Below are positions 1-54,125 of a DNA stretch of 58,193 bases, piece after piece. How positions within the stretch are numbered: the stretch's first letter is position 1; each line of letters begins with the position of its first letter. Source of the stretch: Zygnema cylindricum (lineage: Eukaryota > Streptophyta > Zygnematophyceae > Zygnematales > Zygnemataceae). Both the position numbers and the translations under genes were made by a program. The DNA lies in contig JBBHKE010001685.1 of the NCBI GenBank assembly GCA_037447655.1, forward strand, positions 108,008-166,200. Direction: 5' to 3'. The notes under the pieces are model-generated. The model saw only the letters and a program-made list of their open reading frames with translations, was not told the DNA's origin and did not search any database.

Positions 1-670
1 GAGGTATTCAGGAGTCTCACTTGTCGAAGTTCTTTGGAGAATCTATTGAGACCGGGGAAACACAAAGTCGTTCTTTTTGGCGGTGGGACCGTCTGTTTTT
101 TGAGATTGGTGGAAGTGGGGACACTTCCGTTCTGAGGGGACTCAGTTATCGTTTTTCTTAGAGACTTAAACGAGGGGACTCGTCATTCAAAACCTCCCAG
201 TTTCAACTGTAAAACATGTCTTCGAGAGACCTTCTCAGAGAGTGTCTGAGATAGATGACTATATGCTTCGTTTAGTAAAAAGGTGAAAGCATGTGTTTTC
301 ATGTCTACGGCCAGTCGACATTTAGGCCATGTTGTACAATATCCGTACAAAAAGTACACCGGCATCTGTACTTTTGTGTACGAAAGTGGAAAAATGATTT
401 GCTTCGTATATCAGTAGATAGAGTCTGTGAGAGACTCTTCCAGAGAGCTTCTGTACAAAATGTCAACTTTGACCCTCCAAAACTTACTGCTCAGGGGAGC
501 AAATTCAGAGATTCTTTTTGCTATTGACTCAGGGGAGTCTTGCCTTCACAGGGGTGAAGGTGGTTAGAGTTTTTTGTCTGCCAGGGTGGCGGTTTTTCTT
601 GCTGAAACACAAAGGGGCCAGAGTTATCTAAGAGGTTTCTTGAAGCTGTTCACTCTGAGGACTTATGGAG
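1..670. repeat. Perfect 313-base mirror repeat (reverse, not complement)
   Basis: Base i equals base 671-i for every i from 1 to 313, so 1-313 read backwards is identical to 358-670 without complementing. The centre, 314-357, is not mirrored except for a 10-base self-mirror at 328-337. The arms are mixed sequence, not purine or pyrimidine tracts. The arm reaches base 1, so the true length may be greater. The right arm is the natural-looking one: its reverse complement resembles 3735-3890. No gene is supported here. Confidence 0.97.
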
Positions 671-1349
671 GTCTCATAGTTTCAGTATATGTCTGAAGGC
701 GCGTGGCAAATGTCCGATGGCGCGCGGCTCGTACGTGACCTTTCCACTGGTAAACGATTTACACGTCCGGTGATTGTCTAGTGTCCTCCTTGAGGACACT
801 AGCGAATCACTGGACGAAGTGACCTTTTGCTTCGAAAACTCATAATCGGATGGTGTACGTTGTCGCCCAAAAGTTTGGAACATCTCCTGTAATCATGTTT
901 TATATAATAAAAAAAACAGTACGTCCGTGTACGACAATGAGCTGGATCTGTACGGCAATGCATTTTTTCAAGTAAACAACCTCACTTTTTGCGTGATGGA
1001 GGTTCACCCTTAAAAACATATTTTCTCGAGCACAATTGTTAGATTAAAAGATTTTATATCCACTTTCCGATTGGTGGACGCCAATCAAATATCAGGCATG
1101 TCCTGCAAGGGGAAATTATGTATGAAATTGCGAAGATAAAATCAACAATAATAGCGGTGCATGGTGTTGTTAACACTTAACACAACGGAATTCCGCACGT
1201 GGTCGTTCATATCTCTAGGTGCGAATAGTTCACCTTAGCCAATGTACGACATTGTTTGGAGTGATTCAGGTTCATAGGGATTCGTGTCAATTTTAGGGCA
1301 AATCGTACAGTCAACCGCGAGTCCACAAAAGACTTTGCTCTCGAAAATC
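671..1349. other. Gene-free AT-rich stretch with an imperfect inverted repeat
   Basis: I see no coding region. At 765-788 and 792-815 there is an ordinary inverted repeat with 24-base arms, three mismatches and a 3-base loop. The rest resembles the GTAC-rich relic sequence common elsewhere in the window. Confidence 0.6.
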
Positions 1350-3734
1350 CCTTAGGGGTGTCCCCGTGTAATCAGTACTTTGATAAAATATTTTTGGACT
1401 GTAGTGATGATTCTCCTTACTACTTTGAAGAGGGTCTCAATGTGCGAAAATGCAATCGGAACTTTGAAATATGACGGTTGTAGACGTAGGTACAACTTGT
1501 GCCCATTGAAGACGGGTGAAAATTTCGACGATTGGGTGACGCCAACAAAAACAGCGAGAGTTGTAGACGTCTCGATTTTTGTAAAATTGTAGATGTTTAG
1601 GGTTTGGTGACATTGTGACGTCATGCTCACTTGTGAGAACGTCGATGTCACTGATTCAAAAACTTTCCGCCATGGTTTCCCGATTTTTATCACTTGACTT
1701 GCCATTAAAGCCAAAAATTTGGCAAAAAAATATTTTTCAAAGGTCTTTCAATTTATATCAATATTACTGTATCTCATTCTAAAAAGTGCGAGATAAAAAC
1801 GATAGTGTGAGAGGGAGAGGGGAGTGGCAAGGACGACGAAAAATTATGCAAAGGACCCATGAATGAAAGTGGAGGTCCGAGACCCCTGCAATTTTTTTCT
1901 GTACATGCGCGTGATAGGCATGGATAAAAATAGCGATACTCTCCCTCATCCAAATTTTTTACCACTCGTATGGCCCGTGCGTGGATCATTTTTCATTCGC
2001 TGTTTGGGTGGTACCTTAACTAAAACACCCCCTCAAGGTGATTTTGGATGAAGTTTTTTGATGGGCTAGATTCTCTTGCCCTGGGGTTGAAAAGAAGAAA
2101 ACGCCAAAACGCGTTCACATGACGACAAACATGCTGTACATTCAGAGTATAAAATTGACTTTCATTGTACTTTGGTTAAAATGATTTTCTCGTACGGTTG
2201 AAGTTTTTCTCAGAGTTCCCTAAATTTTTAGGGATACTTTAATACATATGGACACCCCTTTAGCTCCTGCAAGTTAGTGGCAAGGATCGTACATTGTGTC
2301 AGATTGGCACTCGTGTGCATGTGGCTAAGGGTGTGTCCCCGTTTCCCCATCATAACTTAATGAAATAGTAAAGCGTCTTCATTACAAAAAATTTCTATGG
2401 TAAAACCACCTGTGTACAAAAGGGGTAAAACTAAAAAAGACATTTGGAGACTACAAGGGTCACGGGAAAGCAATTTAAATATAAAAAATAAAACGAAACA
2501 AAGCAAAAAAGAAAAAAACCTTAACGAGTCTACCTGCAAACAAGCTAAGGTCCACAACCACAAAGATCATGGATGTGGACCGAGTCCCTTGGTAGAAGGT
2601 CTGGAAGACCACGCTTGTCATCGACCAATGTGTTACAATGAAGGAGAGCCACACTTTCGCTCTCTGAAGGGCAATTGAGACACGTTGATGGTAGAACGCA
2701 GTCAAAAGACTCTGTGGATGACTCCCTCGACCTCTAGATTCAAACGTTTTTCGTGCACATTGGCTAAGGAAGTCGTCGAACGACTTGTCCGAAGATTAAA
2801 AATCCCCACTGCAAATCGGACAAACTAGTCCAACATGTCTTTGGTGAGCGTAGTCTCTTTCTTTTTTAGCCCCTGCGTCCCGAGCCGCCACACTTATATG
2901 CAAAGTCGCGCAAGATGAAATGTGTGTCCCAATCGGCTTTGTAAGGACCACATCACCAAGCGTCCTCCCAGTACCATGGAGAAAAACTAAGGCTATGTGC
3001 CAATGTAACCGAAAATTTAGAATGCTACTTTGGATTTTAGCGCAAATTTTCCGATGTACTTTTCAAAGTGTTCCTTTTGGGTCTTCGGTACTTTAAATAT
3101 GTTACAATTGCAGTCGTCTACAAAATGTGCGACACTGTACGAAACATCCTAAAATTGGTGACATGTACAAAAATGGTGACGATTGTAGATGTCGAGTTTT
3201 TTGTGACGTTGTAGATGCTTATGGTTTTGTGGCATTGCGAGGTCACGCTACCTTGTGACCTCATTAATACATCAAGTTTTTGCCACAACTTCCCGATTTT
3301 TATTTTTTTTTATCTTTCATCATTCGATATGCCAACAAAATACGACCAAAGATATAAAAAAAAAACAAAAAAAGAAAAAAAAGACTCTTTAATTTTATAC
3401 CATTATTGTTGTATTTGATTTAGAGAAGAGAGAAAGAGGAAAGGTCAAGTGAGAAAGAGGGGGAGAGCCGAGGACGACGTAAAACTTTGGAAAGGGCACA
3501 TGAATGAAAGTGGAGGTCTAAGACCCTTGCGATTTTTTTCCGTACATGCTCGTCATTTTAATGCGTACATGCGCGTGACGAGCATGGAAAAAAATAGCGT
3601 GTACTATCCTCCGTGCAAAAAAAATCGAAGACATTTGACCCGTGCAATAACGTTTTCCTATTCGTCAATTGGCTATTACTTGTATTAGTATCACCTCGCG
3701 AGTCGTGCAATTCTGTGTCCTCCATTGAACTACA

Positions 3735-3890
3735 AAATTCAAGAAGCCTCTAGATAGTTGTTAACTAACCCACTTTCAATGGCAACCACTGCTGCCCAAG
3801 CAAACAAGTTGGCAATCTGACTGCTCCCCTGTGCAGCTTAGACTCCTCTGAGTCCGTAGGAAAAATAATCTTTGAAAACGCCCAACCAGG
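3735..3890 (+). repeat. Non-mirrored relative of the mirror-repeat arm
   Basis: This stretch resembles the reverse complement of the right arm of the 1-670 mirror repeat. Shared phrases include TTCAAGAA.CCTCT, TAGATA and CCCCTGTG, followed by AGACTC.CCTGAGTC. It shows that the arm belongs to a repeat that also exists in ordinary orientation. Confidence 0.6.
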
Positions 3891-4563
3891 CGATTAGTTA
3901 TAAGGTGGCAAAAATGCCAAGTTTATACAAACTCTTAAAGGGAGAGAGATCACTAGCTATCGAATTCCCTAAGTCCTAAACCCCTCTCACAACCCCTATC
4001 TACTAACGTACGAACCAATCAAATAAATGTAGGGTACGAAAAGGTACTACGACCGATGTACTTTCTGTACGGCCTGTGTACGGCAAGGCCATTGAGTGGA
4101 CGTGTGTCCACTTTTTACTGGTCCTTATGTTCCCCGGAATTCCTGCGACCAAATGTTATCCCTCCACGTGGCGCCACGTCATGCCACGTCCATAAACACC
4201 GAAGTGACCATTTCGCGATCTCGACAGTGATATACGCCGTCGGATTAAATCCGAGACTAAATGTCGACTGTCGAAACAAATGTCCAATTCATTTGTTTCG
4301 TGCGAAATAATGTTCGCACTATATAACACTTGGTTCTATGTCTTTTCGTTCGTCATTCCGTTAATCAAATTCATGGTCTTAACACTATTTAAATAATTAT
4401 CAAACCTAATGTATCCTAACAGACTTCTACGACAGACTGGATAGAGCTAACGGCTACGCGGCACTTTGCCAGTCAGAGGTCCGAGTCCTGCCGGACTCAA
4501 CGTTTTGTTGAGAGAACCTTTTGTTGAGAGTGACATAAGTCACTCTTTAGTCCTGCCTGCTTA

Positions 4564-4639
4564 GCTAGGACAGCCATCGCTCAACCATCCTCTCTATCCC
4601 TGCTAGGACAGCCATCGCTCAACCATCCTCTCTATCCCT
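4564..4639 (+). repeat. Two tandem 38-bp copies
   Basis: A 38-base unit starting GCTAGGACAGCC occurs twice back to back (4564-4601 and 4602-4639) with no differences seen. No function is apparent. Confidence 0.9.
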
Positions 4640-5039
4640 AAGTGACTACAACAAGTATTGGGTAGAGAGAGGAGGTGGAGGCAGGCTGTCTGCTTTTTCT
4701 TTTCCTATTTGCATTGAACTATCTAGACCTAGAAAATACCATATAAATCTAGTAATTTCAACAAGTCGCTTTTATTAAAATGTGTGAAGGTGAGCTGGCG
4801 TGATGTGGGAGTGGGTCAATAAGATAATAATGCCAAATTGGAGTACTTCAAAGGTAAAAGAGGACGCAAACGGTATATTTGACATGTATTTTGTTTTTGT
4901 ATGTTCTTGCCCATTTTTCGTACGACGTAATATTTTCTCGTTGCAAGTCCCATTTTTCTGAGAAAACGACGGGAATAAACCCTTACTTTAACACATGGGC
5001 ACACCGCCTAAGTCAACCCGAATGCTTTGACAACCCTTA

Positions 5040-9075: not shown

Positions 9076-12000
9076 TTAGAGCTTTAGGTTTCCTAATTGT
9101 TTCTCAATCTGTTTATGTTCTTTTGTACCAGAAGTAGGTGATCTCCAACTCATACTTTTTCGTTTCTGAAACATATCTCGTCGTTGTCGACTAATATTTC
9201 GATCAGCCACTCCGGCCTTCACAAATAGTTCCTTTGCGGAATTCAAATTTCCAAACTCCTCCTCTATTTCCCCAGCTTGCTGCATAAAAACAGGGACAAA
9301 AAAACCGGAAGTACATCAGCTACGCCTTACGGAAATACCACAAAAGATAGTCCCAACTTTACCGTCATGGTGTCCCTACTACTACTGTTATTACTATTGT
9401 TACCATTTTAACTATTATTACCGTTATTCCTATTACTACACCGTAAATCGCTATTTGCGTTAAAAAATAAGTAATATGAGGACTGTTGATGTTAATATTT
9501 ATGTTTCCGGTCCAAATGTCGTGGACGATTGTGAACCGCTAAAAGAATGACCGTTAAGAAAAAAACTAGCATTTAACAAAGCTAATTCTTATTTAGAGAG
9601 CAAAAAAAATGGAATGAAATTAGTGTTCTTAGCGTTAACAGCGATTCACAGTGTACTATGATTACTATTCTTATTCTTGTTTTCACTATTCTTCCTGTTA
9701 TTACACAACTATTATTCATGCTCATATATGCCAGTAAAAAAAACAACATATATTTGTTGAATAAATTAAGCCCCAATCCATCAAACATTTTTATTGTTCC
9801 TTCAACACTCTTAAACAAACCTTTAGAGCAAGCAAACAAGAATGGTCTAAACTTTTCTTCGTGCCAAATGACAACAAATAAAGCAATGTGCATTTTCTTA
9901 AATAAGTTGTTACGCCCCCATCGACACTTGACTCAAGGATATCCCGAATTTTTGCTTACCGTCTCAAACAACAAGGAAATTGATTCGACAACATTATAGA
10001 ACCCAGTTTCATACTTTAAAATGATTCATATACCATCACTGATTTGAAACAATAAGACTAACCAACATGGAAACATGACTCTAAATGAACTTGCTTCCTA
10101 TCTAAGCTCATAGACCATGCGTTTCCCGTTTACAACTTCTCTAGATAATTAGACAAATCATACGGGTCCATAAAAAACCTAAAAAACCTCATAAAACCTA
10201 ATTATCACTTTACAAAATCGTAAACCCTAGATGAACAACAAGGTTCTTGCTATTATAATAAGGGTTTTTTACCCTCTCATCTCACCTGGAGAACCGCGGG
10301 GTTGTTTGGTTCAGTAACCAAAGCCAAAGTCAAAGCATTTTTAGCCAACTCATGTTTTCCACATTGTCGTTCCAACCGAGCGTAAGCCTGTGGTAAAAAC
10401 ATAATCTCTAAGGTTTTTTAAGGGTTTTTTTCTGGGTATCTTTTCTGAGGGAGAGGGGCGGGGGAGGTTTGGGTAACCTTTTCTAGGTAGTATTTTATTT
10501 GTTGAGTATTTCTTTCTTTGTGGTAATTTTCTTTTAGGAGAGTTTTTTTAGTTCTAATAGAGCATAAACATATGGTAAAAAACACCCATTTTTTTTTATC
10601 GCTAAAATATAGTGTAGTTTGGTACCACAAAGTCAAATGTTATCGCAAACAAAAACCATCTGGTCTCACTTTCATTGAGATTAAAAACAAATATAGAAGA
10701 CAAGTACAAAAAAAAAGAAAGAACGAAGAAAGAAAAGCCTACAAGTTTCCTGCAATGCCTTCAAGTTTCAGGGAAGGGAGGGAGGGAGGGAAGAAGGGGG
10801 GGAGGGGGGGGAGGGAGGAGGGAAGGGAGGGAGGGAGGGCTGGAGTGAAATACTAAAAAAATGATCGGTGGGACAGTACCCAAAACTGAAACCAATAAAG
10901 TGGTATAATACCCAAATAGAAAAAAAAATGGCATATTACCGGCGAATGACAATTGGCAAAAAAAAAAAAAAGGGTACCTTAACCAAAAAAAAGAAAAAAA
11001 AAGACAATTGGGGGAAAAAAATACCTGCAAACAGGCAACATCAGTTGGAGAAGTTTCGAGTCCTTTTTCAAACAAACGCCGCGATTCGTCCAAATTTCCC
11101 GCCTTTTGTTCCATTACTGCCCACGACTGCAAATCCCATAAAATAAACCAACTTTAATTATCACCTCCAAAACTGCCAAAAAAACTTCAGCTCATCGCTA
11201 ATTTTCAAATTGCATATTGTTTGTCTCACTATTTACATAAGTTTCTCCCATTAGGAGCACAACCATCACAACCATTAGGAGCAATAGTTTGTAAGTGCAA
11301 AAAATGAGGCCATATTACACATTTTTTACTCAGAAATTATTTGAAGTAACATGCAGTTAAGAGAATTGTTACGAATTTAAACACGAACAACGATTTGAAA
11401 TTGAAAACGCATAGAGTATGGAACAAACCGGACTCATAATAAACAGATTTAAAAGACACGATCACCAAACATGCTTGATTCATCTCATGTCTGTAGGTAC
11501 CAAGATAACTGCTCAAAAATTCAATCCCTTTCATATGATAGAAAGTACAATCAGTTATTCAAATTCTTTGCTAGTACAGAATGTAAATCAAATATTTGCG
11601 GATCTCTCAAGGAGGATTTACTCACCTGCCACACATAAACAGCCTGAGGAGCAAAACTTAAACACCTTTGATAAAGTTCCCGAGCTTTTTGCAAACTTCC
11701 GGAAGTATTTAGTCGAGCTTCATGGTGTGCCCAAGCCTGACAAAAATCGTCCAATGAAAAAAATATCCACAGTTTTTACTTTTTCTTATTTATCGCCAAA
11801 TAAGTAATCGCTGAATTAATTATTTGCTGATTTTGTAAGCTGCTTTTCTTACAATCTCTCTTCCTTACCCCCTCCCTCTTTATCCTCTCTTCTCCTTATC
11901 CTCTCTCGTCCTTCCCCTCTCACTTCCTTACCCTCTTTCTTCCTTACCTGTAAGGTGTAAATGCTTTTTTAAACCTCAAAGTTTGTGAGTTGCTTTCTTA

Positions 12001-15000
12001 CCCTCTCTTTTCCTTCCCCTCTTTCTATCTTATTCTCTCTTCCTTATCCTCTATCTTCCTTACCTGTAATGCTTTTTTGGTTCCACCTGTCGACTAAATT
12101 TTGTAAGTTGCTTTCCTTACCCTCTATCATCCTTACCCTATCACTTCCTTAACGTCTCTCTTCCTTCCTACCTGTAATGTGTGAATGTTTTTTGGTTCCA
12201 CCTCTAAACCTCGGTGGAAAAGTTCCCTCATTCGTTTCACATTCCCGAGCTCCGCTTCCATTACTCCCCAAGCCTGGGGAGGGAGAGGGGGAGGGGGAGT
12301 GGGTGAGGGGAAAGAGAGAGGGTGGGGGAGAGGGAGAGGGAGAGGGAGAGGGAGAGGGAGAAAGGCCACAAATAACTGGTTAACTCTAACAGCGAAGAAT
12401 GGTGCACAGAGTACAACATGCAGACGACAAAGAACAACACAAAGTACAAAATAAAAAGTTATACTACAAAGACATTACAAAGCACAGAATACAACATTAA
12501 GCACAAAGTACAAACTACAAAGTAAAACACAACAAATGCAGTATAAAGTACAGAATATAAAGCAGAAACTAAGGCAAAATAACAAAAAGTATTAAGTACA
12601 AAGCAATACCACATATCAAGTACAATACAAAGTACAGAATAAGCACAAAATACAAGGCACGACAAACAAAAAGTAGAAAGTACATGGCAGTACCTGCCAG
12701 CACATCGCATCCAATGGGCCTGCCTTTGCTGCACGACGAAAATAACGCCTTGCGAGTCCCCAATTGTGTGCGCTTTTTTCCAATAATGCCCTTGTGTGAA
12801 GAACAACTGCATTTCCCGGTTGAACTCCCTCGGCCCTCACGAGGAGTTCCCGACAACTCGCCCATCTACCTCTCTTTTTCTCCAGTACAGCCCAAGCATG
12901 GAGTCCCACCACCTCAGCCTCGACAACTGTGGACCTCTCCTCTCCCTCTGCCTACATTCCCAAAAAACTCCAAAATCTTACAATTAGAGGAATCCCACCA
13001 GCTCTGCCATGACCACAACCTACATTTGCAAAAAGTAGAGTTGCATATTGAGGGAAGAAAAGCGATATCGATACAAGAACGATCCTCGATATTCCATACA
13101 TTCAAACATACGTGTCTTACCATACAATGCGATAATTAAGTTACTGAAATTGTTAGGGTGCAGAAGCACAACTCCGACCAAAATGTCGGTAAACCATAGC
13201 ATTTCACGTTAAATTCAATGAAATATCAATCTTTAATGTACAAATTATACCTGTGGATAACTTATCGTAAACAGGTATAGTATAAGTGTATAAAATATCG
13301 AGATACATATCGTGTATCACAACAAAATATTTTTGATACACTGCACCGCATATCGTTATTAGCGTCAATGACAATATATTGGTGCCACTAAATTTTATCC
13401 CTCGAACCTAGAATAATGTCAATGACACTAATTGTTTTTTTCTTAATAATTCTTTAAACGGTTCAAAACCAGGCACATCATGTGGAACAGAATTAGAATT
13501 AACAGGAATACTAACCCCACGCTGGTAAGATTCACGGTGTACTATCCTACAATGTGATACACTACAGTCCTGTAGTGTATCAGAAAAAAATATTGTAAGT
13601 TTTGCGATATGATATGTGAATATACCAAAAAGACTCCAGACATTTAGTATTGCAAGAACGCCCCACTACCTCTGGCTCGACCTCTCCTCTTTCTCTAACT
13701 AGATTCTCAAAAAGACTCCAAGAACTTAGTAGTGGAAGAAACGCATTATCTCTGTCTCTACCACTACTCACTCACTAACTTTGCGCCTAACAAGACCAGA
13801 TAAAAGTCAAAAACATACCATGGATATACAAAGACATGAGAAGAAATGACAGAACAAACCACAAAATAAGGCTTACTTACGTTTTTTTTTTTTTTTGTAA
13901 TTCCTGCTAACAATCAGCACCAAGCGAATCAACTGAACACTAAACTTTGCAAAAAAAAAAAACCTTAAACAAAAAATGCTCAAACACTTTCCATCTCTCC
14001 AGCAACGAATCATAAAGAAAATCAAACTTTTTAAACAAAAAGAAGGAAAGACCAAGTTTTCATCTCACATAAAAACCGTACCATTTGACCAATTTTGAGA
14101 GCTTTTTTAAAAAGTCGACTCGCCACGTCCCATTTTCCATCCTGGACTTCCAGAGTCGCCCAGGCTTGTAAAGCTCTCATAAATTGGGCTCCTCCCTCTT
14201 GCCAATATTCAAATGCCCGAATGCTTTGCTCATATCGACTACGTGCATCCACAATATTTCCTGTTTCCTCCCACCACTCTCATTTTTATTTATATTTTTT
14301 CCCTCACAATCCCCTCATATTTATTGTTTATGACCCCCCCCATCAATCCCATTTTTATTCTTTTTCTCTCATTTCAGACCTCCGGCAACCCTTTAAAATC
14401 AAAATTTCCACCTACAATTAAAGACAAAAGGATTGGCAATCTAATCAATGATCTCTATACTGTCCCATGACTCTTATTTTCATCTATTCAGACACGGGCC
14501 CGCAAATATAAAATCAAAATATTCACCAATGGAAATATGAATAATCAGGTACTGGATGTTCTCTATTCCATCCCACCACTCACATTTCCATGTCTATGTC
14601 TCCAAATTCCCAGCTGCCAGTTTCAAATCCAATGGCCAGAAACTGACAAAATTCTTATCGTATAGCCGACAGGAAAATCTCATGGTGCAGATCATGTATC
14701 GCAGGAAAAGGATCGGCGTTGACACCAGTTATCCACTTAAAGCATATTTTAGCTTTTCTTATGGTAGATGCAAAACTATCAGTAAAAATCCAGAATCGGA
14801 ATAGTCCACAATAATTAATTGACAAGGAGTACACCGTGACTCTTTTAAAAAACCCTAAATAAATTAAGACTGTGAGGACCATTTAAGTATTATTAATTTA
14901 ATTTAGGTAGTGATGTGTACCGTAGATTGGCAGTAACCGATGTCTAAACCAATTTGATTAAAACAGCCGGCATTAAAAAAAAATCCCAATGTGGAAATGG

Positions 15001-18000
15001 GATGCGATACTATACACTTTCAATTCGACACAATACCGGATGCGATATATCCCAATTCAAATATTGATTCTACTGATCAATATTGCATTCATATCAATGA
15101 CATGGCAACTGACGTAGAATGACAGGAAGAAAATTGCTGGCTGCAAGCATCGTGACAAGTCACCTATCTGAGTTCAATTCCAGCCTATAGGCGTTTAACA
15201 ACTGATGCCTTGTCCCGTGGTGGTGTGTGTAAAACTGTGAGCTAGAATATTATTGATTAAGAACCACCACTGTAAAAACCTGAAGAAATGCATATAAACA
15301 GTTTCATGTCGAACTGCGCTACAACATACAACAACAATATGCGGTATCAGTTACCGCATCTATCACAACGGAACTACCGAAAGAACCTCATTTCGCATCG
15401 GCGCATCGTATCGACTTCCACCAATGCCCATTGGAAAGTCATATCGGTAAACCGGTCAATCAGATACGATGTTGACACGATACACATCTTTAAATTTAGG
15501 TCCAAATGACGTGGGCAATTAATGACCACGTACATAAATAATGGTATACTGTAATTATAAGCATTATTAACGCTATTTTATGGTCAGAATCCAAAACAAG
15601 TGCTGAAATAGTATTTTTTATCTAATGACAATTCACGGTATATGCTGACTCACCTGTTTTCCGCTCCAGCTGTGCATAATGAACCCATAAACTGGCATTT
15701 AATGGATGCTCCTTCACTAGCTGCCAACAGATTCCATTGCCAAAACCATACCATCAGCAATTGTATTGTAACCACTGAACACTCCCACTTCAAAAACAGC
15801 ATAAATTATTAGAAATGAAATGGCAGAAAAGAAATGATTAGCGATAGAAAGGGATGAAACAGATGGACAAATGAGGTGCATCGCCTAAGCTTAAAAGGTA
15901 TTCAGCCTCGCATGCAAGTGTGGATTGTGTTAGCTACACAGTCTACCAAGATTTGAGTTAATAACACATATAGGTGCCCCTAAATTCTAGACCTTGAACC
16001 TAAAAAGGTATTAAGAACACTATTTGTTAACGCTAAATATTTAAACGGTTCAGAGTCAGCCACGTCATTCGGAACAGAATCATAATTAATAACACTAATA
16101 TAAACCTCACGATAATAATTTCTTTACTCTAATAACGATACATAGCAGCATTTGCTATTGTGCTACAATCATTGGTACAAGTTTTCCATTTGGGTTCAAT
16201 CCACACTAACTCATGTTTTGCACAAGTTAAAATTGCGTAATTCACCTCATAAACCCGAAACTGAAAAATATCGTTCAAAAAAGCATGGACTACTGTAATG
16301 GTAGGGAGAAGTGATTTTTAGTTATGAACAAGCAAACATCTCTCCATGTCCATGTCCATGACATCCATTCCTCTCTCCTTACTCTCTCCTTTCACTCTCT
16401 CTCTCTCGCTCTCATCTTTTCCTTTCCCTCCTCCCTCTACCCTCTCCATACTCAAGCATTCTCTCACCTGTTGTAACAGCTCCCGTGCTTGACTTAAGCC
16501 CTTGCCCCTATGCTTCATCATCTCCCGAGCCTTCTTCAACTGTTTTTCAATTTCAGGTTTACTATTGTCCTCCTTTCTCTTCATCATATATGACGGTACC
16601 CTCAAAGCTTCCCGAGCAAGTTCCAATTCTTGTACTAAAGTGGGTTGTGACATTTGAGAAGGTCTCGGGCTTCGTAAGAGAGAAAGCCGACTACCACTTG
16701 TTGAATCAACATCAACTGTTTCGGAACTACCATAGTTATCCGATTGACTGGAGGTTTCAGAGGTACTAGAGCTTCCGGATGTACTAGAGCTATCGTAGTC
16801 GTAAGAGTTACCATATCTGTTAGTTAAGAAGGTGTTCCCTCCTACTCTGCCCTCGATATCATCCTCTACAATTTGTAAGTCAGAACCCCAATCAACTGAT
16901 GTGACAGTGACACTATTTTCTAAGCTTGCTAGACTTTCATTTGCAACATATGCCTCTATTGGAACATTGTTATCAAAGTACTTCACTGTTCCATTGTCGA
17001 TCTTCACTGATGTAGTTAAATTATCAGGAGGTCTTGACAAGTCCACCAAGGATGACTTGTCATAGATCTCAACTGTCTCTCCCTCCTGGGAAAAATAAGT
17101 TGACGTATGCCCATCAATACCATTCCCAACTTCCATTAGCTCGGTCGGCTCAGTTTCCCTTACTTCAAAATTCGCTTTATTGGCACTAAAGTCTTCTCTG
17201 TTCGAGGACTGATCCGCTATTAATCCATTCCCAGAGTCAACTTTTGCCTCGAATAAGCATTTCTGCTCTGTTCCTGTTGAAATTTGCGTTAAATGTGTTT
17301 TTTTTTTATTCCTAGATTTAGTTCCATGTTGTAAGCAATCATCGAGCTCTTTCCAATATTGAAGATCAACTCCCGGCAAATCCTGCAATATCCTTACCTG
17401 CAAAAAAAAAAACACACACACACACACACACAAACAAAAAAAAAAAACTCTCGCAGAATAGATGTTACCAGAAACCCAAACACGAGACAAAAACAAAAAC
17501 CGCATACCAAAATAAAGCCCATATTCCTGTTCCAGAAATCAACGTCAGATAGAACTCCAACAACTCAAAACCATCATGCCTGAATTCAGTTCCATTCTTT
17601 GCAGAGACCACCGTGAATCTCTATTAGCGTTAATAACACTCATTCAGTGCCGGGTTTCCTTGGCCCCTGAACAAAAAATAGCGTTAATAATACAAATTGT
17701 TTTTTTTCTAAATAGCGGTTGAAAATCGTTCACGTAACTCGAACCTAAATTAGAAACAATAACGCTAAAATAAACCCCACGCTATACATTTCTTAACGAT
17801 AATAGCAATTCACGGTGTCATTTGACATAATCAAAAACTCACTTGTCGACGAAACTCGGCAAATTCTGAGGCACTGATACTCCCATCCTTATTAGAATCC
17901 AGCAACACCATAAGTTCTCTCGCATCTTCTGGAGCATGAGGTGTTTCCATTGCCACCTCAGACATGACGGTATGGACCTCTTCCATGCTGATACTTCCGT

Positions 18001-20994
18001 CTCCGTTAAGATCAAACATAGCAAACATGTGATCCGTATCAGTGTTCTCCTCCTCCTCCCGTCCCCTATCCTCTGATATTTTACCAAGTCTTTCATATCG
18101 AGTACTTGCCATTTCTGTCATAGCCTCCATAATAGTCTTCAGCTGCTTCACCTGCTCTGACCGCCCCATTCCCCACCACCCCCAAACCAAGCAGTCGTAT
18201 CAATCTCATTCCTGTTTATTTCTGCTTTTTCGAATCTCCTTCCCTCCTGCTTTTTCTTAATCCAATTCCTGCTTTCTTTCATTTTCATTCTTGCCTTTTC
18301 TTAACTTCATTCCTGTCGTTTTTCAATCACATTCCTGTCAATTCCTGCCTCCTTTCAAATGCATTCCTACTTTTTTTCAATCTTATTGCTGCCTTTTCCA
18401 ATCTCCTTCGCGTCTTTCTCAAACTCATTTCTGCTTTCCTTCAATTACTAACTGATGATACCGCAACACAGACTGGATTAGTCTGGACCGCAAAAGTTCA
18501 GGTGTCGATTATTTGAGGTTTACACATAATAAGCATAGACCAGAATTATAAAATTCATACAACAGACTTCCATGCACACGCTTTGCTTTTGAGTAAACAA
18601 ACAAGTACCAATGTCTTAAACAAATTTACAATGAAAAATTTGCAAAATCTCGGTTTAGCTGCATCAGACAGATGGTTTATTACCGATATTTTTATTTTTT
18701 TCTATTTCGTGACAAAGATAGTAATGATTCAATCATTAAAACTGTTGCAAAAGGCTATTTTCTCTGCAACAAGCATTTCAAGTTCATTTGCACGCTGCCA
18801 AATGCAACTCTTGCCACCATATCAGCGTGTAATTATCAATTGAATTCTGAAAAACCTGGACTTCAAACGCCGAGAACAAATGCTGAAACAAAATTTCCAG
18901 ACGTGTGCACTCACAAACGGGAACCCTTGCTTCAAATATTTCACTCAGACGACTCACCGTAGCTCATAGGTTTCTCGTGATTCTTGCAATTCTTACAATT
19001 TTTACAGTTTTTGCAGTTTTTACAATTCTTGCAAATCTTACAATTCCTACAATTCTTACACCCACCTGCTCAGGATCGGTGAGACCACTCTTATAAGCGT
19101 TGTGTGCTGCTGCCCCATGTACTGCCAAAGCATCCATTTCTGCTGTCCGTATTTGTAACTCCAAAGTAGGAGTGTTTTTTCCCTCACTCACATGTACAGC
19201 AAGATGCAAACTTTGGTAATTGTTTTTCTTCGGTTTAGCAATATAGTCTTTAAAACGCTCAGGAACTTCCTGCCAAAGCCTGGCAGCAACTTCTCGCACT
19301 AAATAACAAGCTTCTACTCCTCTTGCCTCGTCTTCTTCCGGCAATCCTTTACGTTTAGGTGTAACAACGACTCTGAGCCCTAAAAGATCATAAACCTCAT
19401 GACGACTCCGTCCATCTCTTAGCAGTTTTTTCATCGTGCTATATAAGCTTTTACACCTCCCTCGAACACTCACTCCCTCCAGTAATTCCATTATCTTTTC
19501 ATCTTCCAAAACAGCAGCTTCTAGTTTTCGAGCACATGCCTCCACTGCACTCTCCCCATCCGGCCAATGACCTTGCAACCAATCAGCCATGGATTGGTAC
19601 GATTGTGGAAAAAGTACTCGAAAAGCAGAATCTTCCAGTTCCCACATAAGTGGCCCGGTTCCGAGTGCATGAGCCAAAGGAGCCCAAACCTGCATTGTCT
19701 CCAAAGAAACCATTTGCTGTCGCCATTTCGGCAAGTCTTCCAAATGCCTCATGGTATGCAAACTGACCGCGAGCTCTATAATTATCGCTCGAGGGTCGTG
19801 GAAAGCGAGGCAAAACTGTCGTAAAGCTCGAGCGCTGGAATCGTCCAATCCCTCTGCTCTTTGAGGAGCTTTCCGTACTCTTTGGCTGTCATATAAGACA
19901 CGTGTCACGCCCTCTCCCAACGCAGCCTCCACAGCTCCATGGCTGAGAGCTCCTCTCTCCACCGCATCCCTTACCAGTCCGGCAGCTATGGTCTCAGCAT
20001 CCATCTGCACCACAGTAGTCAAGATAGCATCATGAGCCAATGTTGATAGACAACTCACACAAATAGAAAGAATTTCAAAAACTCAAGGAAAATTCACCGT
20101 ACATACTCGGCAGTAGTAACTCTGTAACTCAGCCACACCACTCCATGAATGAATACACTAACCAGCCCAGACTCAACATTTGTGTAGCGTTTTAGGTGTT
20201 TTAAGACTTATTCTGGTAGTGAAATTTGCACCTAAGATGGATAATCCATTGTGAATTGTGCAATAAAGAATTCATCAAACTCAGCAATCATCAGCTGTCT
20301 AAATTGCAAATTGCAGACAAATTCTTACCCTAAGGTCCGCCAAAGTGGCAGCTACAGCCAGAGCCTTGGCTGTCGGTGAGCACCCTCCTTCCCTGACCAT
20401 GGCTCCCTTCTGCATGGCAGCCATCGCCAGCTTCAAAGCCTGAATCAAAAGACGAGCAGCTTTCCCTCCCTCCGGCAAACGCGGAGCCAAAGCTTCCCAT
20501 GCAGCGAGAAGCTCTGTCACACGGCGTCCTCCTGCACGTTCCAAAGCCACCAATCCTCCGCCAGGCTGACAAGTGTCATCCTGCAATACGCTCAGCCTCT
20601 CTCCTCTCTCCACAGCCTCCTCTTCGCCGAGAGTCTCCTCCCGGTTCCTCACATTGGCCCCTCTGGCGAAAACTATGGAGCCAGAGGAGCCCCTCGGTGA
20701 CGAAGAAGGTAGATGTCGGTCTGAAAGTGTGCCTCTGGAGAAGCACAATACTTGGCCATTGCGGAGAGCAGGCGCAAGGAGTGGCCGCCAATTATGTGAA
20801 GAGGAACCGCCGGTTGTGGCGGACGAACGTACGGATGGGCTGGGCAGGAGGGCGCCATGGACGCAAGCGGGCGGTGACGTGGCCCGCATGGGAAGGGGAA
20901 AGCCAAGGATGCGCCACGTGGCGGATGGACATCCGCAGCCTTTGGGTGGGGATGACAAGATTGTCTTTCTAAAAACCTGAGATCCACGTGGCAT
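9076..20994 (-). CDS. CRSH: Plastid ppGpp synthetase (CRSH/RSH4) with EF-hands fused to HAT/TPR repeats
   Basis: Twelve exons: 20994-20329, 20004-19066, 18151-17843, 17397-16468, 15720-15654, 14260-14069, 12926-12694, 12273-12172, 11736-11626, 11126-11025, 10387-10286, 9279-9076. All phases agree and give about 1318 aa. Residues 1-100 are rich in S, R and P, like a plastid transit peptide. About 150-400 resembles the plant CRSH N-terminal region, with no catalytic HD motif. About 403-522 is the (p)ppGpp synthetase (LLGLRVVV, FKDYIAKPKKNNYQSLH, LELQIRT). EF-hands lie at 582-593 and 620-631 with intact acidic ligands. Exon 4 starts with the usual CRSH tail (GVDLQYWKELDD) and continues in the same frame through a Ser/Thr-rich linker into ARELLQQ. 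Exon 5 continues it as LVKEHPLNASLWVHYAQLE, a good HAT repeat. About 935-1285 carries HAT/TPR-like units as in HCF107 and MBB1, which bind plastid mRNA. By family, it makes (p)ppGpp in chloroplasts under calcium control; a role of the HAT part is inferred. The exon 6/7 junction is least certain. Intron retention after exon 4 would stop at 16318. Confidence 0.85.
9437..9655. mobile_element. Family A TIR element in intron 11
   Basis: Starts TACACCGTAAATCGCTATTT and ends AACAGCGATTCACAGTGTA, an imperfect terminal inverted repeat flanked by TA. About 219 bp, with no coding capacity. It sits in the last intron of the synthetase-HAT gene. Confidence 0.7.
10776..10850. repeat. GGGA purine tract in intron 10
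   Basis: Runs of GGGAGGGA/GGAGGGGG on the plus strand, which are polypyrimidine on the transcribed strand. It lies inside an intron of the minus-strand gene. Short open frames over it are low-complexity artefacts. Confidence 0.9.
11850..12172 (-). repeat. Tandem copies of the exon 8 donor junction in intron 8
   Basis: On the coding strand, the intron following exon 8 repeats a GGTAAGGAAG-type unit many times. Two degenerate copies of the exon 8 end plus its donor (TTACAGGTAAGGAAG) lie at about 11947 and 12062, downstream of the genuine junction at 12172. Each copy keeps a plausible GT donor. Confidence 0.8.
12274..12362. repeat. GA-rich microsatellite next to the exon 8 acceptor
   Basis: GGGAGA iterations on the plus strand form the polypyrimidine tract (coding strand CTCCCT) immediately upstream of the exon 8 acceptor at 12273/12274. 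Confidence 0.85.
12460..12693 (-). repeat. GTAC-type donor-like iterations in intron 7
   Basis: The intron opens GTACTGCC and then carries many loosely repeated TGTACTTTGT-like units on the coding strand, so that donor-like GTACT recurs along about 230 bp. Iterations are degenerate. Confidence 0.65.
13342..13541. mobile_element. Family A TIR element in intron 6
   Basis: Left end TGCACCGCATATCGTTATTA followed by GCGTCAA; right end GATTCACGGTGTA-like. About 200 bp, non-coding, within the synthetase-HAT gene. Confidence 0.6.
13600..13770 (-). repeat. Degenerate copies of the exon 7 acceptor region
   Basis: About 13672-13725 resembles the true acceptor and start of exon 7 (12926-12990). Both share, on the plus strand, GACCTCTCCTCT, then CTC followed by CAAAAA.ACTCCAA. 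A shorter third copy lies near 13625. No intact exon is formed. Confidence 0.6.
15543..15642. mobile_element. Short family A relic in intron 4
   Basis: About 100 bp beginning near GTATACTGTAATTATAAGC and ending ACAATTCACGGTATA, with internal ATTAACGCTATTTTATGG typical of the family. The left end is weak. Confidence 0.45.
17608..17819. mobile_element. Family A TIR element in intron 3
   Basis: Begins ACCACCGTGAATCTCTATTA and ends ATAGCAATTCACGGTGT. The roughly 210-bp element has internal AGCGTTAATAA motifs and no coding capacity. Confidence 0.7.
18205..18450. repeat. Degenerate CT-rich tandem repeat in intron 2
   Basis: Loose 25-35 bp iterations around CATTCCTG plus CTTTTTC occur on the plus strand upstream (in gene sense) of exon 3. 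No other signal is seen. Confidence 0.6.
18966..19066 (-). repeat. Ten-base donor-like tandem array at the start of intron 2
   Basis: On the coding strand, intron 2 opens GTGGGTGTAAGAATTGTAGG and continues as about nine degenerate 10-base units (GTAAGAATTG, GTAAGATTTG, GTAAAAACTG and similar). Several match the donor consensus GTAAGA, so multiple potential U1 sites lie within 100 bases of the chosen exon 2 donor. Confidence 0.85.
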
Positions 20995-21001: not shown

Positions 21002-21550
21002 GCTTTTGGAAGTTTCAAAAGTTTGCAAAAGTCTCAAAAGTTTCTAAAGGTTTTTGAATTTTTCTGACGTTTTTTTTTTTTTTTTGCTTTCACAAGTTGT
21101 GAAATTTGGCGTCTCTTTTCGCTGTTTGCATTCCTAGTCACAGCTCTCTCCGCTTATCTCTCTTCCATTCTTAAATCGCACTCGTACTGTGCTTCTTCTT
21201 GCCTCTTTTGTCAGTTCTACCCTCAGTTTTCTTCTCACTGTCTTTTTTTCAGTTTTTTTTTTTTTTTGTTTAAATCACCTAGCGCTTCTGCTCGCTTTTC
21301 TCCTCTCCTGTTTCTGTTCTCCCTCATTTTCCTTTCTTAAATTATACCTTATAGTTTGTAACCAACATTATCAATTGTGTTCATCCAAATGGTTTTGAGC
21401 AGTTGCACCTTAATTAGTGGAGGAATCGTAGAACATTCGGAATGCTTGATTCATTAGTTTCTGCTCGTTGTTCCCTCTATTCATTATAGAATTTTGAAAT
21501 TGAACAACGAATAAAGCCAGGGTATTCAGATCAAGTCCACATTTAACACC
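20995..21550. promoter_or_regulatory. Shared divergent promoter region
   Basis: 556 bp separate the start codons of the minus-strand synthetase-HAT gene and plus-strand TADA. The region has poly(T) tracts near 21069-21085 and 21250-21268 and CT-rich stretches common near plant transcription starts. No TATA box could be assigned with confidence. Confidence 0.6.
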
Positions 21551-24449
<2,899 letters not shown>

Positions 24450-26158: not shown

Positions 26159-29100
26159 TTACGAACCTCTCGTATTATTATTACCTATTGAAGACAAAGA
26201 AGGAGAAGGTGAAGGAGAAGGACCACCGAGCAAAAGCACGGGAGTTTGAGCTTGTGATTCCGTACTACTAATAATTCTCCCTCTTCCTTCTCCCACGACA
26301 TTTGATGTGCTTCTCTCCCTCCCTTCACGACTCTCTAACAACTCACTTTCTATCCCTCCACTACTCCCCTTTTTGACCGATCCACTCCCAAAACACCGAT
26401 CCCAAAGTTCGTCTAAAAGACTTCTTTCCTCGATCAACGTTTCCATGTCTTGACCCTCGAGTGTTTGTAAATCGTCTAGCCTTTTCCTCAATATTTCTTT
26501 AAAAGATTTCCCACTATCATTATCATTATTGTTTCCTTCTTCCTTTGGACGAACCAACTCCTCTACCTCTTTTGGCCCTTGAATCGCTATTTCGATAAGA
26601 GCTTGTAACGCCGCGTGACGAACATCCGAATCCGAATCTGAAATAAGAGAAGTTAAGAGAGAACCGTATCCCGTCTCGAGAGCCTTTTTTCGATCCGAAG
26701 GATTTTCTTGCATGAGATATTGCAAAACATACAAAGCTTTCCTGAACCAAAGGAAAAAGAGAAGAAGAAGTCACACGATGAGCACTAAAATTAGAGAGAT
26801 AACCGAGAAAATTAAGGAAATAGAGAAAATCAATACTCCTGCCAAAATAAATAATTGTACTTTACGCCAATAGTGCAAATGTCGTGAATTAAAGCATTAG
26901 AGATAGCAAAAGAAAATGCAAGACATTCACAGTCATGAGAAAGAACCCATCGAAATCGAAAACGAAATAAAAAACGATACATATCGTAACATCGGTATAT
27001 GGTAATATACAGAAGTTCAAATCAGACAAATATTGTAATCAACATAAACACAAACTATCGCTGATAATTCAACAGATATTTTTCCTAAAGGTATTCCATA
27101 TTTACGAAATGTACGAAATTTGCAATGTGTACGTACTGCAAAGTGTACAGACTGTATGAATTGTACAGATTTTACCTCCATATCGTTGGTGTTACGATAT
27201 CAATATCACAATATCTCAATTATCAGTCGTTCAACATATCGCATTGATACACCAATTATCAAGACCACTAAAGATACTCAATTATCATCAAACTCGTTCA
27301 ACATGAAGCATTAACAGAACTCCTTGAGAAATAATGTCGAATTAACATGCATTATATTATCAAACTCAGTACACTAATGTTAAGAATTACCAAGGACAAT
27401 CGACATAGTAAAAGAAAATCCTGCCCGGGACACAATCTACTCTCACTAGACTAATAATATCTTCCATGACAGAGAGCTTTGATTATTTGCCAGCGTAATT
27501 TCTAAAACAGAAGGAAATTACAAGATTAGGCTATATCCTGTTTATGCTGACTGCAGGTCAACATGTAATCCTAAATAAGATTCCAAATTCGTTCCTTTTC
27601 AGGAATTCATAAATTCAAACACTATCTAGACTTGCAAGACCTATGGCATCGTGGTATACAGCCCATGGCTATTATAGAGAAAACCACTCTAATTCAAGTG
27701 AACACTTTTCGGCCCGAAATCATAAACCCATGTTGAAACACTATTTAGTATTATGGCCAGTAATATGCCACGTGCCAGGTTGAATTTTCGCTTAGTTAAT
27801 TCTAATAAAGTCTTATTGCTAATAATTCACACACTCTAGTAACCATGGGCGAGTGTAGCATGACAGAGACCTGGAGGCCCCTTAAAGGTCTCTCAAACTC
27901 TAAAAGTTTTAAACCGTAAAAGTAAAGAGTTCCCATGCAAGATAAAAGCATAAAAGCTAAAAGTTCCCATACAAGGATCAATGTCATACAATGTTAGTTT
28001 GATTAACCTCAAATGTGGTAGACAGTGCCCCATTCATACATTTACAAATGTGATCTCCCAATACTGGCACTTGTTAATGTGTTCACACGATTTTCAGACC
28101 ATTCTAAAATGAAATATGGGGCAAAAAATACTTGAACTCACCTCTGGAATCGTGGCTCATCACTTTTTAAAGCTTCTTTTAATGCTGAAAAACCGCCAGC
28201 TTTCCTGAATTCATCAACTCCAGGCTTGTTATGCCTGATAAGAGCTGTCCATCCAAAGCAAAAGCAAACCAGACATATATTTTGACATATATGTTAGCAA
28301 TATGTTACATGCTATAAAGCCACACATAATAACTGTGAGAAAATGAGCATAAATGATGGTAAATGAGGAGGAAAAAACCGTCAACACCTATCAGCATTAA
28401 GGAATGTATATTGCGGAATGTATTTTATTGCTATTAAGTCTCTTTTAGGTTAAGCAACTTGGACGATTCGAACCGCTTACCAAATTAGCATTAAAAAAAA
28501 AATAGCATTATTAAAGCTATTTTATGTTTAGGGGCTCAAAAAAAAAATCGGCACTGAAATAATGTTATTAAAATTATTAGTTTCCAACTTCACGATGAGC
28601 TGAACTACATTTAATACCAATAATAATACAAACCAGGAGGCAGGTGTTAAAAATCTCGATTAAAAGAATAAATTAAAACTAGTTCGTAAAATCTAAACCT
28701 TAACAAAAACTGTACAGAGTAAAGGAATCAAACAGAGCGTATATAAACGGATTATGAAACAAAAATTGGTATACATACGAGCTAAAAGCAAATCAGCAGC
28801 TTGACTGTTCCCCAAGTGACATAAAGATGTCGTACAAGTCATAGTAACTCCAAAACTATAATCCTTACACATTTTCAATTGCTGGTCACAAACTGGCCAA
28901 AAGCACAATCATGTCCCGATTCTGTAACAAGTGAACAAATTACCATTTTTTCATACGAATCAATTTCTATGCCAAATTCAATACAGAGTTTCCTGCGACA
29001 TTTTGACTTTCCGGACATTTTTCAGTTTTGTGAGATTTTCAAAACATTGATTTCCATGACTTACAAGAAATTGCTCCCAATGCTTTTGTTCGAACTTTGA

Positions 29101-43013: not shown

Positions 43014-43233
43014 TACACCGTGTATCGCTATTAGGGTTAATAGTTTTTTTGCCACTTAAAATATATTTTCTCAGTACACACTTGTCCAATTCTCAATTTA
43101 AGACCGTAACTGGAAGCTGAGAATCTTATCTTTTAATCGCAACCGTCAGATCTAAAAATCGACATGTGTGTACGGAGAAAAGATGTTTAAAGAGACGAAA
43201 AAAACATTAACACTAATAGCGATTCACGGTGTA
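43014..43233. mobile_element. Family A TIR element
   Basis: TACACCGTGTATCGCTATTA at the left and TAATAGCGATTCACGGTGTA at the right. The ~220-bp element contains internal GTACACACTTGTC and ATGTGTGTACGGAGAAAAGA, themselves inverted. It is non-coding and MITE-like. Confidence 0.85.
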
Positions 43234-44758: not shown

Positions 44759-45305
44759 TACACTGCCAATCGTTAATAGTGTGTAAGTTTTTTTTAGCGT
44801 ATAAAAATAATTACCGTGGTGTACTTATTTAAGAATTTGAAAATTTTGGAAAAAATCATACATTCTAATTGTTTGGTACTTATGGTAATTTGGATCTTTG
44901 AAAAAAAAAAATGTCGGTCGCAAACATGCTTACACTAATATAGGTCTCCGTACAAAATCTGACAAATCGTACACAAATCGTACATTCACACGGTCGAATA
45001 GCGGCTGTCGGACGAATATGTGCGAGCGGGATTTTTTACGACCTGGTTTTTTTTCCTTTTTAGAACGCACATTCTCATGCGTCCGCGGTTACTAAAACTA
45101 ATTTATTGTACTTTTTAACTTAAAAAGGTACATTTATGTACGGTCTGACACTGACCGTACACCACTCTATTTAAGAGACAACGTACTGAAAATAACCCTA
45201 AATAGAATAAAGAAAAAAATAGAATGAACTACACTAATGGAGAATAAAATAAAAAAAAAGCGGGACGGAATTAGCGTACACAACGCTAATAACGATTGGC
45301 GGTGT
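44759..45305. mobile_element. Family A TIR element
   Basis: TACACTGCCAATCGTTAATA at the left and AATAACGATTGGCGGTGTA at the right, 547 bp apart. An extra copy of the left end lies just outside (from 44731). The right end abuts the assembly gap. Confidence 0.75.
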
Positions 45306-45312
45306 ACTGTAC

Positions 45313-45984
45313 NNNNNNNNNNNNNNNNNNNNNNNNNNNNNNNNNNNNNNNNNNNNNNNNNNNNNNNNNNNNNNNNNNNNNNNNNNNNNNNNNNNNNNNN
45401 NNNNNNNNNNNNNNNNNNNNNNNNNNNNNNNNNNNNNNNNNNNNNNNNNNNNNNNNNNNNNNNNNNNNNNNNNNNNNNNNNNNNNNNNNNNNNNNNNNNN
45501 NNNNNNNNNNNNNNNNNNNNNNNNNNNNNNNNNNNNNNNNNNNNNNNNNNNNNNNNNNNNNNNNNNNNNNNNNNNNNNNNNNNNNNNNNNNNNNNNNNNN
45601 NNNNNNNNNNNNNNNNNNNNNNNNNNNNNNNNNNNNNNNNNNNNNNNNNNNNNNNNNNNNNNNNNNNNNNNNNNNNNNNNNNNNNNNNNNNNNNNNNNNN
45701 NNNNNNNNNNNNNNNNNNNNNNNNNNNNNNNNNNNNNNNNNNNNNNNNNNNNNNNNNNNNNNNNNNNNNNNNNNNNNNNNNNNNNNNNNNNNNNNNNNNN
45801 NNNNNNNNNNNNNNNNNNNNNNNNNNNNNNNNNNNNNNNNNNNNNNNNNNNNNNNNNNNNNNNNNNNNNNNNNNNNNNNNNNNNNNNNNNNNNNNNNNNN
45901 NNNNNNNNNNNNNNNNNNNNNNNNNNNNNNNNNNNNNNNNNNNNNNNNNNNNNNNNNNNNNNNNNNNNNNNNNNNNNNNNNNNN
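45313..45984. other. Assembly gap (672 N)
   Basis: Unresolved bases. Long open frames that cross it are meaningless. Confidence 1.
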
Positions 45985-46787: not shown

Positions 46788-47008
46788 TACACTCTGTATC
46801 GCTATTACTGTTAATGTTTTGTTCGCGACTTAAAACATCTTTTCTCCGTACACACTTGTCGGATTTTCAATTTGAGACCGCCAATTGGAAGTTGGGAATC
46901 TTACCTTTCAATCGAAGCCGTCAGATTGACAATCCTACAAGTGTGTACGGATAAAAGATGTTTTACACGACGAAGAAAGCATTAACACTAATAGCGATTC
47001 ACGGTGTA
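46788..47008. mobile_element. Family A TIR element
   Basis: TACACTCTGTATCGCTATTA at the left and TAATAGCGATTCACGGTGTA at the right. About 220 bp, closely related to 43014-43233. Confidence 0.85.
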
Positions 47009-53300: not shown

Positions 53301-54016
53301 ACACAAAAGGTATGGAGACAGAATTTCAAAATTGCTTTCGATTCCGGTGCAATGGCCGTTAAACAAATTGGACAAGGGCCAGAGTCATTTCTATCTGGAT
53401 CTTCAAATTTTGGCAGTGAGCAAGATCCTACTTTTTCCACTGCAGCATCAGGAGATTGTTCGCATCCTGTGAAGGCGTTTTCAATACACGTTCCAGTTAC
53501 GTCTTCGGCTAAACTGTTTTGATTTTTTAAAAATGAACTGGATGGAACAGAGGAGGGAGAACCTAAGGTTTCTAAGTTATTGCTATTTTCAACTGCAAAA
53601 GAAGACAATTCTTGCTGACGTGGCAAATCACAAGCTGACTCAGAAACAGGGTGAAAGTCACGAATATCGTGATTCGGTGTACCAAAATTCTCCCTCTGTC
53701 TATGAATAGAGTTTCCTTGTGAAATATCAGAAGTAGAGAAATTAGAGAACTCTCTTCTCGTTCCAACATCATCATGAATTTGAGTTTGTTCTTGCAAAGA
53801 AAAGCCTCTGTCTCCTTGTTCGTCAGTTTTGCTACAAGAAGCCCCAGGGTTCTTATTCAAAGAGATGTCATCTTCTTTTTTATAAGTTTTATTATTACTC
53901 ATAGCGGAGGGAAGCATAGCCCAAACGCCAAGATTCGGTAACCACACTTGTTTATAAGGAGGAATGTGAACAGATGAAAATTGAAAAGATTTACGGAGGT
54001 CACTTTCTCTTTCCAT
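48664..54016 (-). CDS. RING-type E3 ubiquitin ligase, TOPORS-like, with tandem C-terminal repeats
   Basis: Six exons: 54016-53055, 52411-52187, 51920-51857, 51302-51225, 50745-50513 and 49930-48664. Phases agree and give about 942 aa. A C3HC4 RING finger occupies 215-255 (C215, C218, C233, H235, C238, C241, C252, C255), followed by WWYNVQNDAKYDEQDLP. Further on, RRRRVYEQNLRSLP, RRRLEPWIQRELK, FLGSNASTFWHEFRNFAENP and FTMQAYDSVVRY match the conserved C-terminal region of TOPORS-like plant RING proteins. By family it would transfer ubiquitin, probably in the nucleus. After residue ~565 there is an IQSS-type short-repeat segment. Then come three charged repeats of ~97-106 residues (622-926) with RETRNGINGE, PWDRNLRMDDE and MGKRRFL motifs, whose function is unknown. 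The first ATG of the exon 1 frame is used as start. Confidence 0.87.
48715..49629 (-). repeat. Three coding tandem repeats of about 300 bp
   Basis: These encode the three charged ~100-residue repeats of the RING protein. All three remain in frame and differ by small codon-multiple indels and many substitutions, consistent with selection on the protein. Confidence 0.9.
50266..50376. repeat. (AC)n(AT)n(GT)n palindromic microsatellite
   Basis: An AC tract with a few GCAC interruptions runs into an AT tract and then GTGC/GT. The two sides are reverse complements, so the ~110 bp forms a near-perfect hairpin. It lies in RING gene intron 5. Confidence 0.95.
52130..52187 (-). repeat. Degenerate donor-junction duplication in RING intron 2
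   Basis: The intron opens GTATATCTTCTTCTAGAAAT. About 50 bases later, GTATATCT and CTAGAAAT recur with a different spacer. CTTGAACTGCAA also occurs twice further in. Confidence 0.55.
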
Positions 54017-54125
54017 TTCCAGAATGAAATAACGCAGGGAAATTTTACTTTAAAGGGTGGAATAAAGAGTGAGAAAAAAGGAACCATGAAGGAACCTGGA
54101 AACCCTAATGGAGCTGACTACTGAG

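Follow-up and report, generated by a model that had tools for sequence, protein, structure and literature searches.

The window analysed here is a 58,193-nucleotide stretch of Zygnema cylindricum DNA (GCA_037447655.1, contig JBBHKE010001685.1, positions 108,008 to 166,200 of the forward strand), and coordinates below count from its first letter. Between 20994 and 9076 on its minus strand lie 12 exons that together give a single open reading of 1322 amino acids, whose sole stop is at its end (9076). The predicted protein joins a CRSH-type (p)ppGpp synthetase to an arm of HAT repeats, and carries, in order, a degenerate HD domain, a RelA_SpoT domain, two canonical EF-hands, a linker and ~10 HAT/TPR repeats. 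Pfam assigns HD_4 to residues 186-338 and RelA_SpoT to 404-529, both above cut-off, EF-hands to 575-635 and TPR/HAT families to 939-1253.

Exon 1 (20329..20994, residues 1-222) encodes a Ser/Arg-rich, acid-free, transit-peptide-like N-terminus, judged by composition only (10 K/R, 0 D/E and 19 S/T in the first 90 residues), and the start of the degenerate HD domain. The remainder of that domain and the RelA_SpoT synthetase (19084..19461, E 2.2e-29) are in exon 2 (19066..20004, residues 223-535). Exon 3 (17843..18151, residues 536-638) holds the EF-hand pair, with loops DLNGDGSISMEE (17978..18013) and DSNKDGSISASE (17864..17899), both of which are canonical 12-residue loops. Exon 4 (16468..17397, residues 639-948) carries the CRSH tail VRILQDLPGVDLQYWKELDD, the linker (16654..17316, residues 666-886) and the start of the HAT arm. 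HAT sequence continues through exons 5 (15654..15720), 6 (14082..14260) and 7 (12694..12951). Exons 8 (12172..12273), 9 (11626..11736), 10 (11025..11126) and 11 (10286..10387) are single repeats of 34, 37, 34 and 34 residues, so that the stretch 12273-10286 has one HAT repeat per exon, in phase 0. Exon 12 (9076..9279) adds the final repeat, a basic C-terminus and the stop.

The initial annotation had placed the CRSH tail and the HAT start in one open frame of a 930-bp exon at 17397-16468, with phase-compatible junctions on both sides. Coordinates and frame are exactly so, and the frame is unbroken over all 11 introns, each of which is GT-AG. Ten of the 11 are in phase 0, and intron 5 is in phase 1.

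Continuity of the fused gene

That a fused mRNA exists is almost certain, because P0001, a protein from a related species, aligns to the window protein without gaps over all 11 exon junctions. P0001 (source lgn) is 1216 amino acids long and comes from 2 contigs, the longer of 3800 bases. At less than one third of the 11.9-kb gene span, a contig that still encodes almost the entire reading frame is likely to be cDNA. Identity to P0001 is 97% in the HD domain, 90% in the synthetase, 95% in the EF-hands and 91% in the HAT arm, and the linker has 154 of 213 residues identical (72%), with 8 further residues unaligned. P0001 begins after the N-terminus, and therefore lends no support to the transit-like stretch. 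In another relative, P0006 is one continuous frame named c5349_g1_i1 orf=443-4852, presumably in the style of de novo transcripts. The proposed splice of exon 4 to exon 5, ARELLQQ+LVKEHPLN, has continuous, gapless counterparts at the equivalent position of P0001 (LLQQLVKEHPIN) and of a stand-alone paralogue, P0010 (LLQQLVKDHPLN).

Exon 4, where the two halves meet, has a frame that stayed open in 0 of 20000 first-order Markov simulations. Within the linker, the true frame scores -0.031 per codon, compared with -0.239 and -0.724 for the other two frames, and none of the 11 introns has a frame that scores as high (best frames, -0.154 to -0.572). Whole exons, most of which belonged to the training set, all score higher than the linker (0.046 to 0.427, exon 4 being the lowest), so the coding evidence for the linker is weak by itself. 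The equivalent stretch in a Chlorokybus structure model has a predicted local distance difference test value (pLDDT) < 50, and in a structure model of a relative the HAT arm forms a superhelix.

These data bear on whether neighbouring genes have been wrongly joined, with a CRSH gene that stops near 16318 and a HAT gene whose start lies within exon 4. Reading through intron 4 does give a stop at 16318, the linker scores poorly, and the supporting continuous proteins come from relatives and not from the window's own species. However, P0001 spans all the junctions, many genera have fused orthologues, and the internal Met codons (residues 726, 887 onward) are, by eye, not followed by a transit-like stretch. 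We consider two genes highly improbable and reject that reading: the single open model, P0001 and the fused orthologues all agree with the original proposal of one CRSH-type and HAT protein.

Enzyme half, and distribution and age of the fusion

The hydrolase motif of the enzyme half is altered, with RDAVER aligned to HDTLED of Thermus thermophilus Rel, the nearest solved structure to the catalytic half; the His and the last Asp are replaced. Synthetase motifs are kept (GRCKS at 404, NNYQSLH at 483 and LELQIRT at 503), as is the glycine equivalent to RelSeq G240, residues to which we assign roles partly by assumption. By eye, this glycine is Ala or Ser in P0007, P0029, P0013, P0030, P0031 and P0039, which are early-branching or algal proteins. 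Diatom RSH4s also have Ala or Ser at this position, according to PMC6881373.

The catalytic half is shared with bacterial long RSH proteins (Rel/RelA/SpoT), but the window protein has an altered hydrolase motif, and EF-hands and a HAT arm replace the TGS/ACT half; neither TGS nor ACT is among its Pfam matches at E <= 0.001. An altered HD domain, RelA_SpoT, two C-terminal EF-hands and a short tail are common to this protein and land-plant RSH4/CRSH (Arabidopsis At3g17470 and OsCRSH1). In the CRSH proteins of wheat, Wolffia and Diphasiastrum, no more than 80 residues lie between the beginning of the second EF loop and the C-terminus, whereas the window protein has ~660 residues beyond the EF tail, including the arm. 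The CRSH proteins of Arabidopsis and rice are reported to be plastid-located and to have Ca2+-dependent synthetase activity. In a CRSH tree of 23 sequences with a Thermus-type RSH outgroup, the window protein falls with Closterium, mosses, Diphasiastrum, Triticum and Wolffia in an 11-sequence group of moderate support (85/85), and stands beside Closterium (93/89; 94/90 in the HAT tree), a placing that points to a likely zygnematophyte.

Two protein searches, each scoring only the candidates that share most words (7991 and 7989), returned 28 and 108 proteins, with one in common and thus 135 distinct; absences from these searches are not proof, because only those candidates were scored. According to precomputed Pfam columns, 17 of the 135 combine RelA_SpoT, EF-hand and TPR/HAT domains: P0001-P0009 and P0013 from the first search, and P0029, P0030, P0031, P0033, P0034, P0035 and P0038 from the second. 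The initial annotation had suggested seeking proteins that match both the RelA_SpoT and the HAT/TPR profiles, as these 17 do. Named carriers include the mosses Ceratodon, Sphagnum fallax and Physcomitrium patens, two Closterium strains, Cymbomonas and Micractinium; portal prefixes that we take to denote Chlorokybus and Mesostigma are also represented. RelA_SpoT is not in the precomputed domain list of P0012, from a third Closterium, and P0011 (Sphagnum magellanicum) has, by eye, only the start of the arm. CRSH proteins without an arm are found in Diphasiastrum, Triticum, Wolffia and Volvox africanus (two models), and that of Volvox reticuliferus is partial, with no EF-hands listed. The trebouxiophyte-type fused proteins P0033, P0034, P0035 and P0038 have an added FHA domain, which lies between the EF-hands and the repeat arm in P0033 and suggests a phosphopeptide input.

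The initial annotation knew of no described RelA/SpoT protein with this architecture. That view does not fully stand, because C-terminal tetratricopeptide repeats have already been published for RSH4 proteins of certain green algae: PMC6881373 cites Ito et al. 2017 for them and adds that they were observed again. The window protein has such repeats as the TPR/HAT families at 939-1253, and is very likely the same kind of protein. The citing text does not give the HAT identity, the streptophyte and moss members or the ancestral status, although Ito et al. 2017 may say more. A forkhead domain that the same text reports for Chlorella variabilis may correspond to the FHA domain found here, and PMC10107265 describes novel domains as frequent in algal RSH4. 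In the literature searched, mostly without subscription papers, only PMC6881373 links tetratricopeptide repeats with RSH4 and ppGpp, and among the papers listed no title or opening of an abstract describes this fusion, which does not show absence from print. What may be new is the breadth and age of the fusion, the HAT identity of the arm, its separateness from HCF107, and a daughter gene of the fused arm.

The CRSH tree and the HAT tree (25 sequences) broadly follow green-plant relationships as generally understood. We compared the halves across 17 fused sequences, namely the window protein and 16 of the 17 proteins, leaving out P0009, which is close to P0008. The trees of the two halves have 11 of 14 splits in common, and distances in the two halves correlate at 0.849, a value reached in 0 of 9999 permutations. 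The splits in conflict are those of P0013, P0030 and P0031 and those that position the trebouxiophyte-type and Mesostigma/Chlorokybus sequences. This congruence fits one old fusion that would have been inherited whole. The fusion is likely to be ancestral to green plants, and Volvox and the sampled vascular plants have probably lost the arm since. The arm-less wheat form is likely the later one, because fused proteins occur in other green algae and in mosses. We do not extend arm loss to all vascular plants, because the fused P0004 and P0006 fall within the land-plant side of both trees. A search with the HAT region only (E <= 1e-30, 7997 candidates scored) gave 9 proteins at 23-33% identity, none of them plant-named, and thus says nothing on whether the arm survives as a separate vascular-plant gene.

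Related and neighbouring loci

Across the 353-Mb assembly of 2689 contigs, RelA_SpoT matches occur at three loci: the fused gene of the window and contigs C267 and C1170. The latter two match the window protein over short exons only, at 32-53%, and by eye resemble different RSH families. A stand-alone HAT gene is present on the minus strands of C2035 (L017, 7810-401) and C716 (L018, 7719-196), with approximate ends; these are probably two haplotype copies. It has its own transit-like first exon, is the orthologue of P0010, and has eight HAT exons that correspond to exons 5-12 of the fused gene. RelA_SpoT searches of C2035 and C716 gave no match on either contig. In the HAT tree, this gene and P0010 are sister to the arms of the window protein and P0001 (100/99), and it is therefore likely a daughter of the fused gene that arose within this lineage.

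The initial annotation likened the arm to HCF107/MBB1-type plastid HAT proteins, and we compared them among the retrieved loci of this genome. The query was a sequence that we take to be Arabidopsis HCF107. It has a collinear match over several exons, at up to 64%, on the minus strand of C498 (L024, 7960-3633). The C498 gene ends in the HCF107 C-terminal motif RNLxxQQxTEVVD, which by eye is missing from the fused C-terminus. In the HAT tree, HCF107 pairs with C498 (100/100), apart from all the fused arms (84/86, moderate). The C498 gene is thus likely the true HCF107/MBB1 orthologue of this alga, and we reject orthology of the arm to HCF107; the arm most likely belongs to a different HAT subfamily. 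The likeness holds only at the level of fold, a tandem HAT superhelix of ~10-11 repeats, beside an overall basic character and a presumed plastid setting.

An inverted-repeat element of ~210 bases, resembling a miniature inverted-repeat transposable element and with ends like CACCGTGAATCGCTATTA, has copies at 9439-9653, 17609-17817, 43016-43231 and 46790-47006, two of them within introns 11 and 3 of the fused gene. Its ends match 17 times in the window (<= 3 mismatches) versus 0.01 expected. By eye, a divergent upstream frame (21515-22003, plus strand) resembles tRNA adenosine deaminase (TadA), and minus-strand sequences at 26159-26770 and 52940-54049 resemble a Fes1/HspBP1-like repeat piece and a RING-finger protein. 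Bases are unknown (N) at ~45300-45980, and no RNA families at gathering score and no tRNAs were found across the window.

Possible roles of the HAT arm

We tentatively propose, as a real possibility, that the fused protein is a Ca2+-switched RSH4/CRSH-type synthetase whose HAT arm docks it on plastid RNA. A rise in calcium would switch on the synthetase, the arm would grip plastid RNA and so place the enzyme there, and alarmone would be made at that site when calcium rises. The arm may address or gate the synthetase, standing in for the TGS/ACT half with which bacterial RSHs engage the ribosome. Plastid import of the window protein, binding of RNA in preference to protein, and addressing or gating of the synthetase are all points that we infer. 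RNA docking would be the likeliest function, with a protein partner as a close rival.

That rival holds that the arm is a protein-binding TPR scaffold, as in O-GlcNAc transferase and SPINDLY, and would anchor the Ca2+-dependent synthetase on some protein or complex of the plastid; it is possible, if somewhat doubtful. The top fold matches of the arm by Z are protein-handling superhelices, but we did not use the fold match to decide between RNA and protein; it is compatible with an RNA role and not decisive. Pfam TPR_14 outscores HAT models on the window arm and matches 18 of 22 sequences, versus 15 of 22 for HAT_PRP39_C; yet HAT models do match those 15 of 22 sequences, four of which have no arm. 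The groove of the arm is net positive in all 17 fused sequences tested, a charge that we regard as suggestive only and do not accept as proof of RNA binding. Two early-branching fused arms (P0013 and P0029) are near neutral. PMC3555233 favours protein contact for the HAT motifs of Mbb1, whereas the plastid HAT proteins HCF107, MBB1, NAC2 and MAC1 act on RNA (PMC8635915 and PMC3555233).

It is distinctly unlikely that the halves work independently, the arm being an RNA factor that uses the transit peptide of the synthetase and shares only import and expression with it. The long low-confidence linker, the arm-less enzyme in Triticum, Wolffia and Diphasiastrum, and the arm alone on C2035/C716 would fit such independence. 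Tree congruence says nothing on function, because any two co-inherited genes would be congruent. However, the halves have stayed together across groups as far apart as prasinophyte-type algae and mosses, a persistence that hints at some advantage of linkage without proving it.

Returning to RNA docking, a broader and rather unlikely extension is that the earliest green plants possessed an RNA-addressed alarmone enzyme, a Ca2+-switched synthetase reading a specific chloroplast transcript via its HAT arm as a eukaryotic counterpart of ribosome-reading RelA. It would be intact in streptophyte algae and mosses, with the reader lost in the vascular plants where CRSH has been studied. Should the arm steer or gate the synthetase, studies of the arm-less CRSH of Arabidopsis and rice have addressed a reduced form. 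The original link among plastid calcium, RNA and the stringent response would then be testable in a moss, and the fusion would be a eukaryotic answer to how an RSH can sense gene expression after losing its ribosome-reading half.
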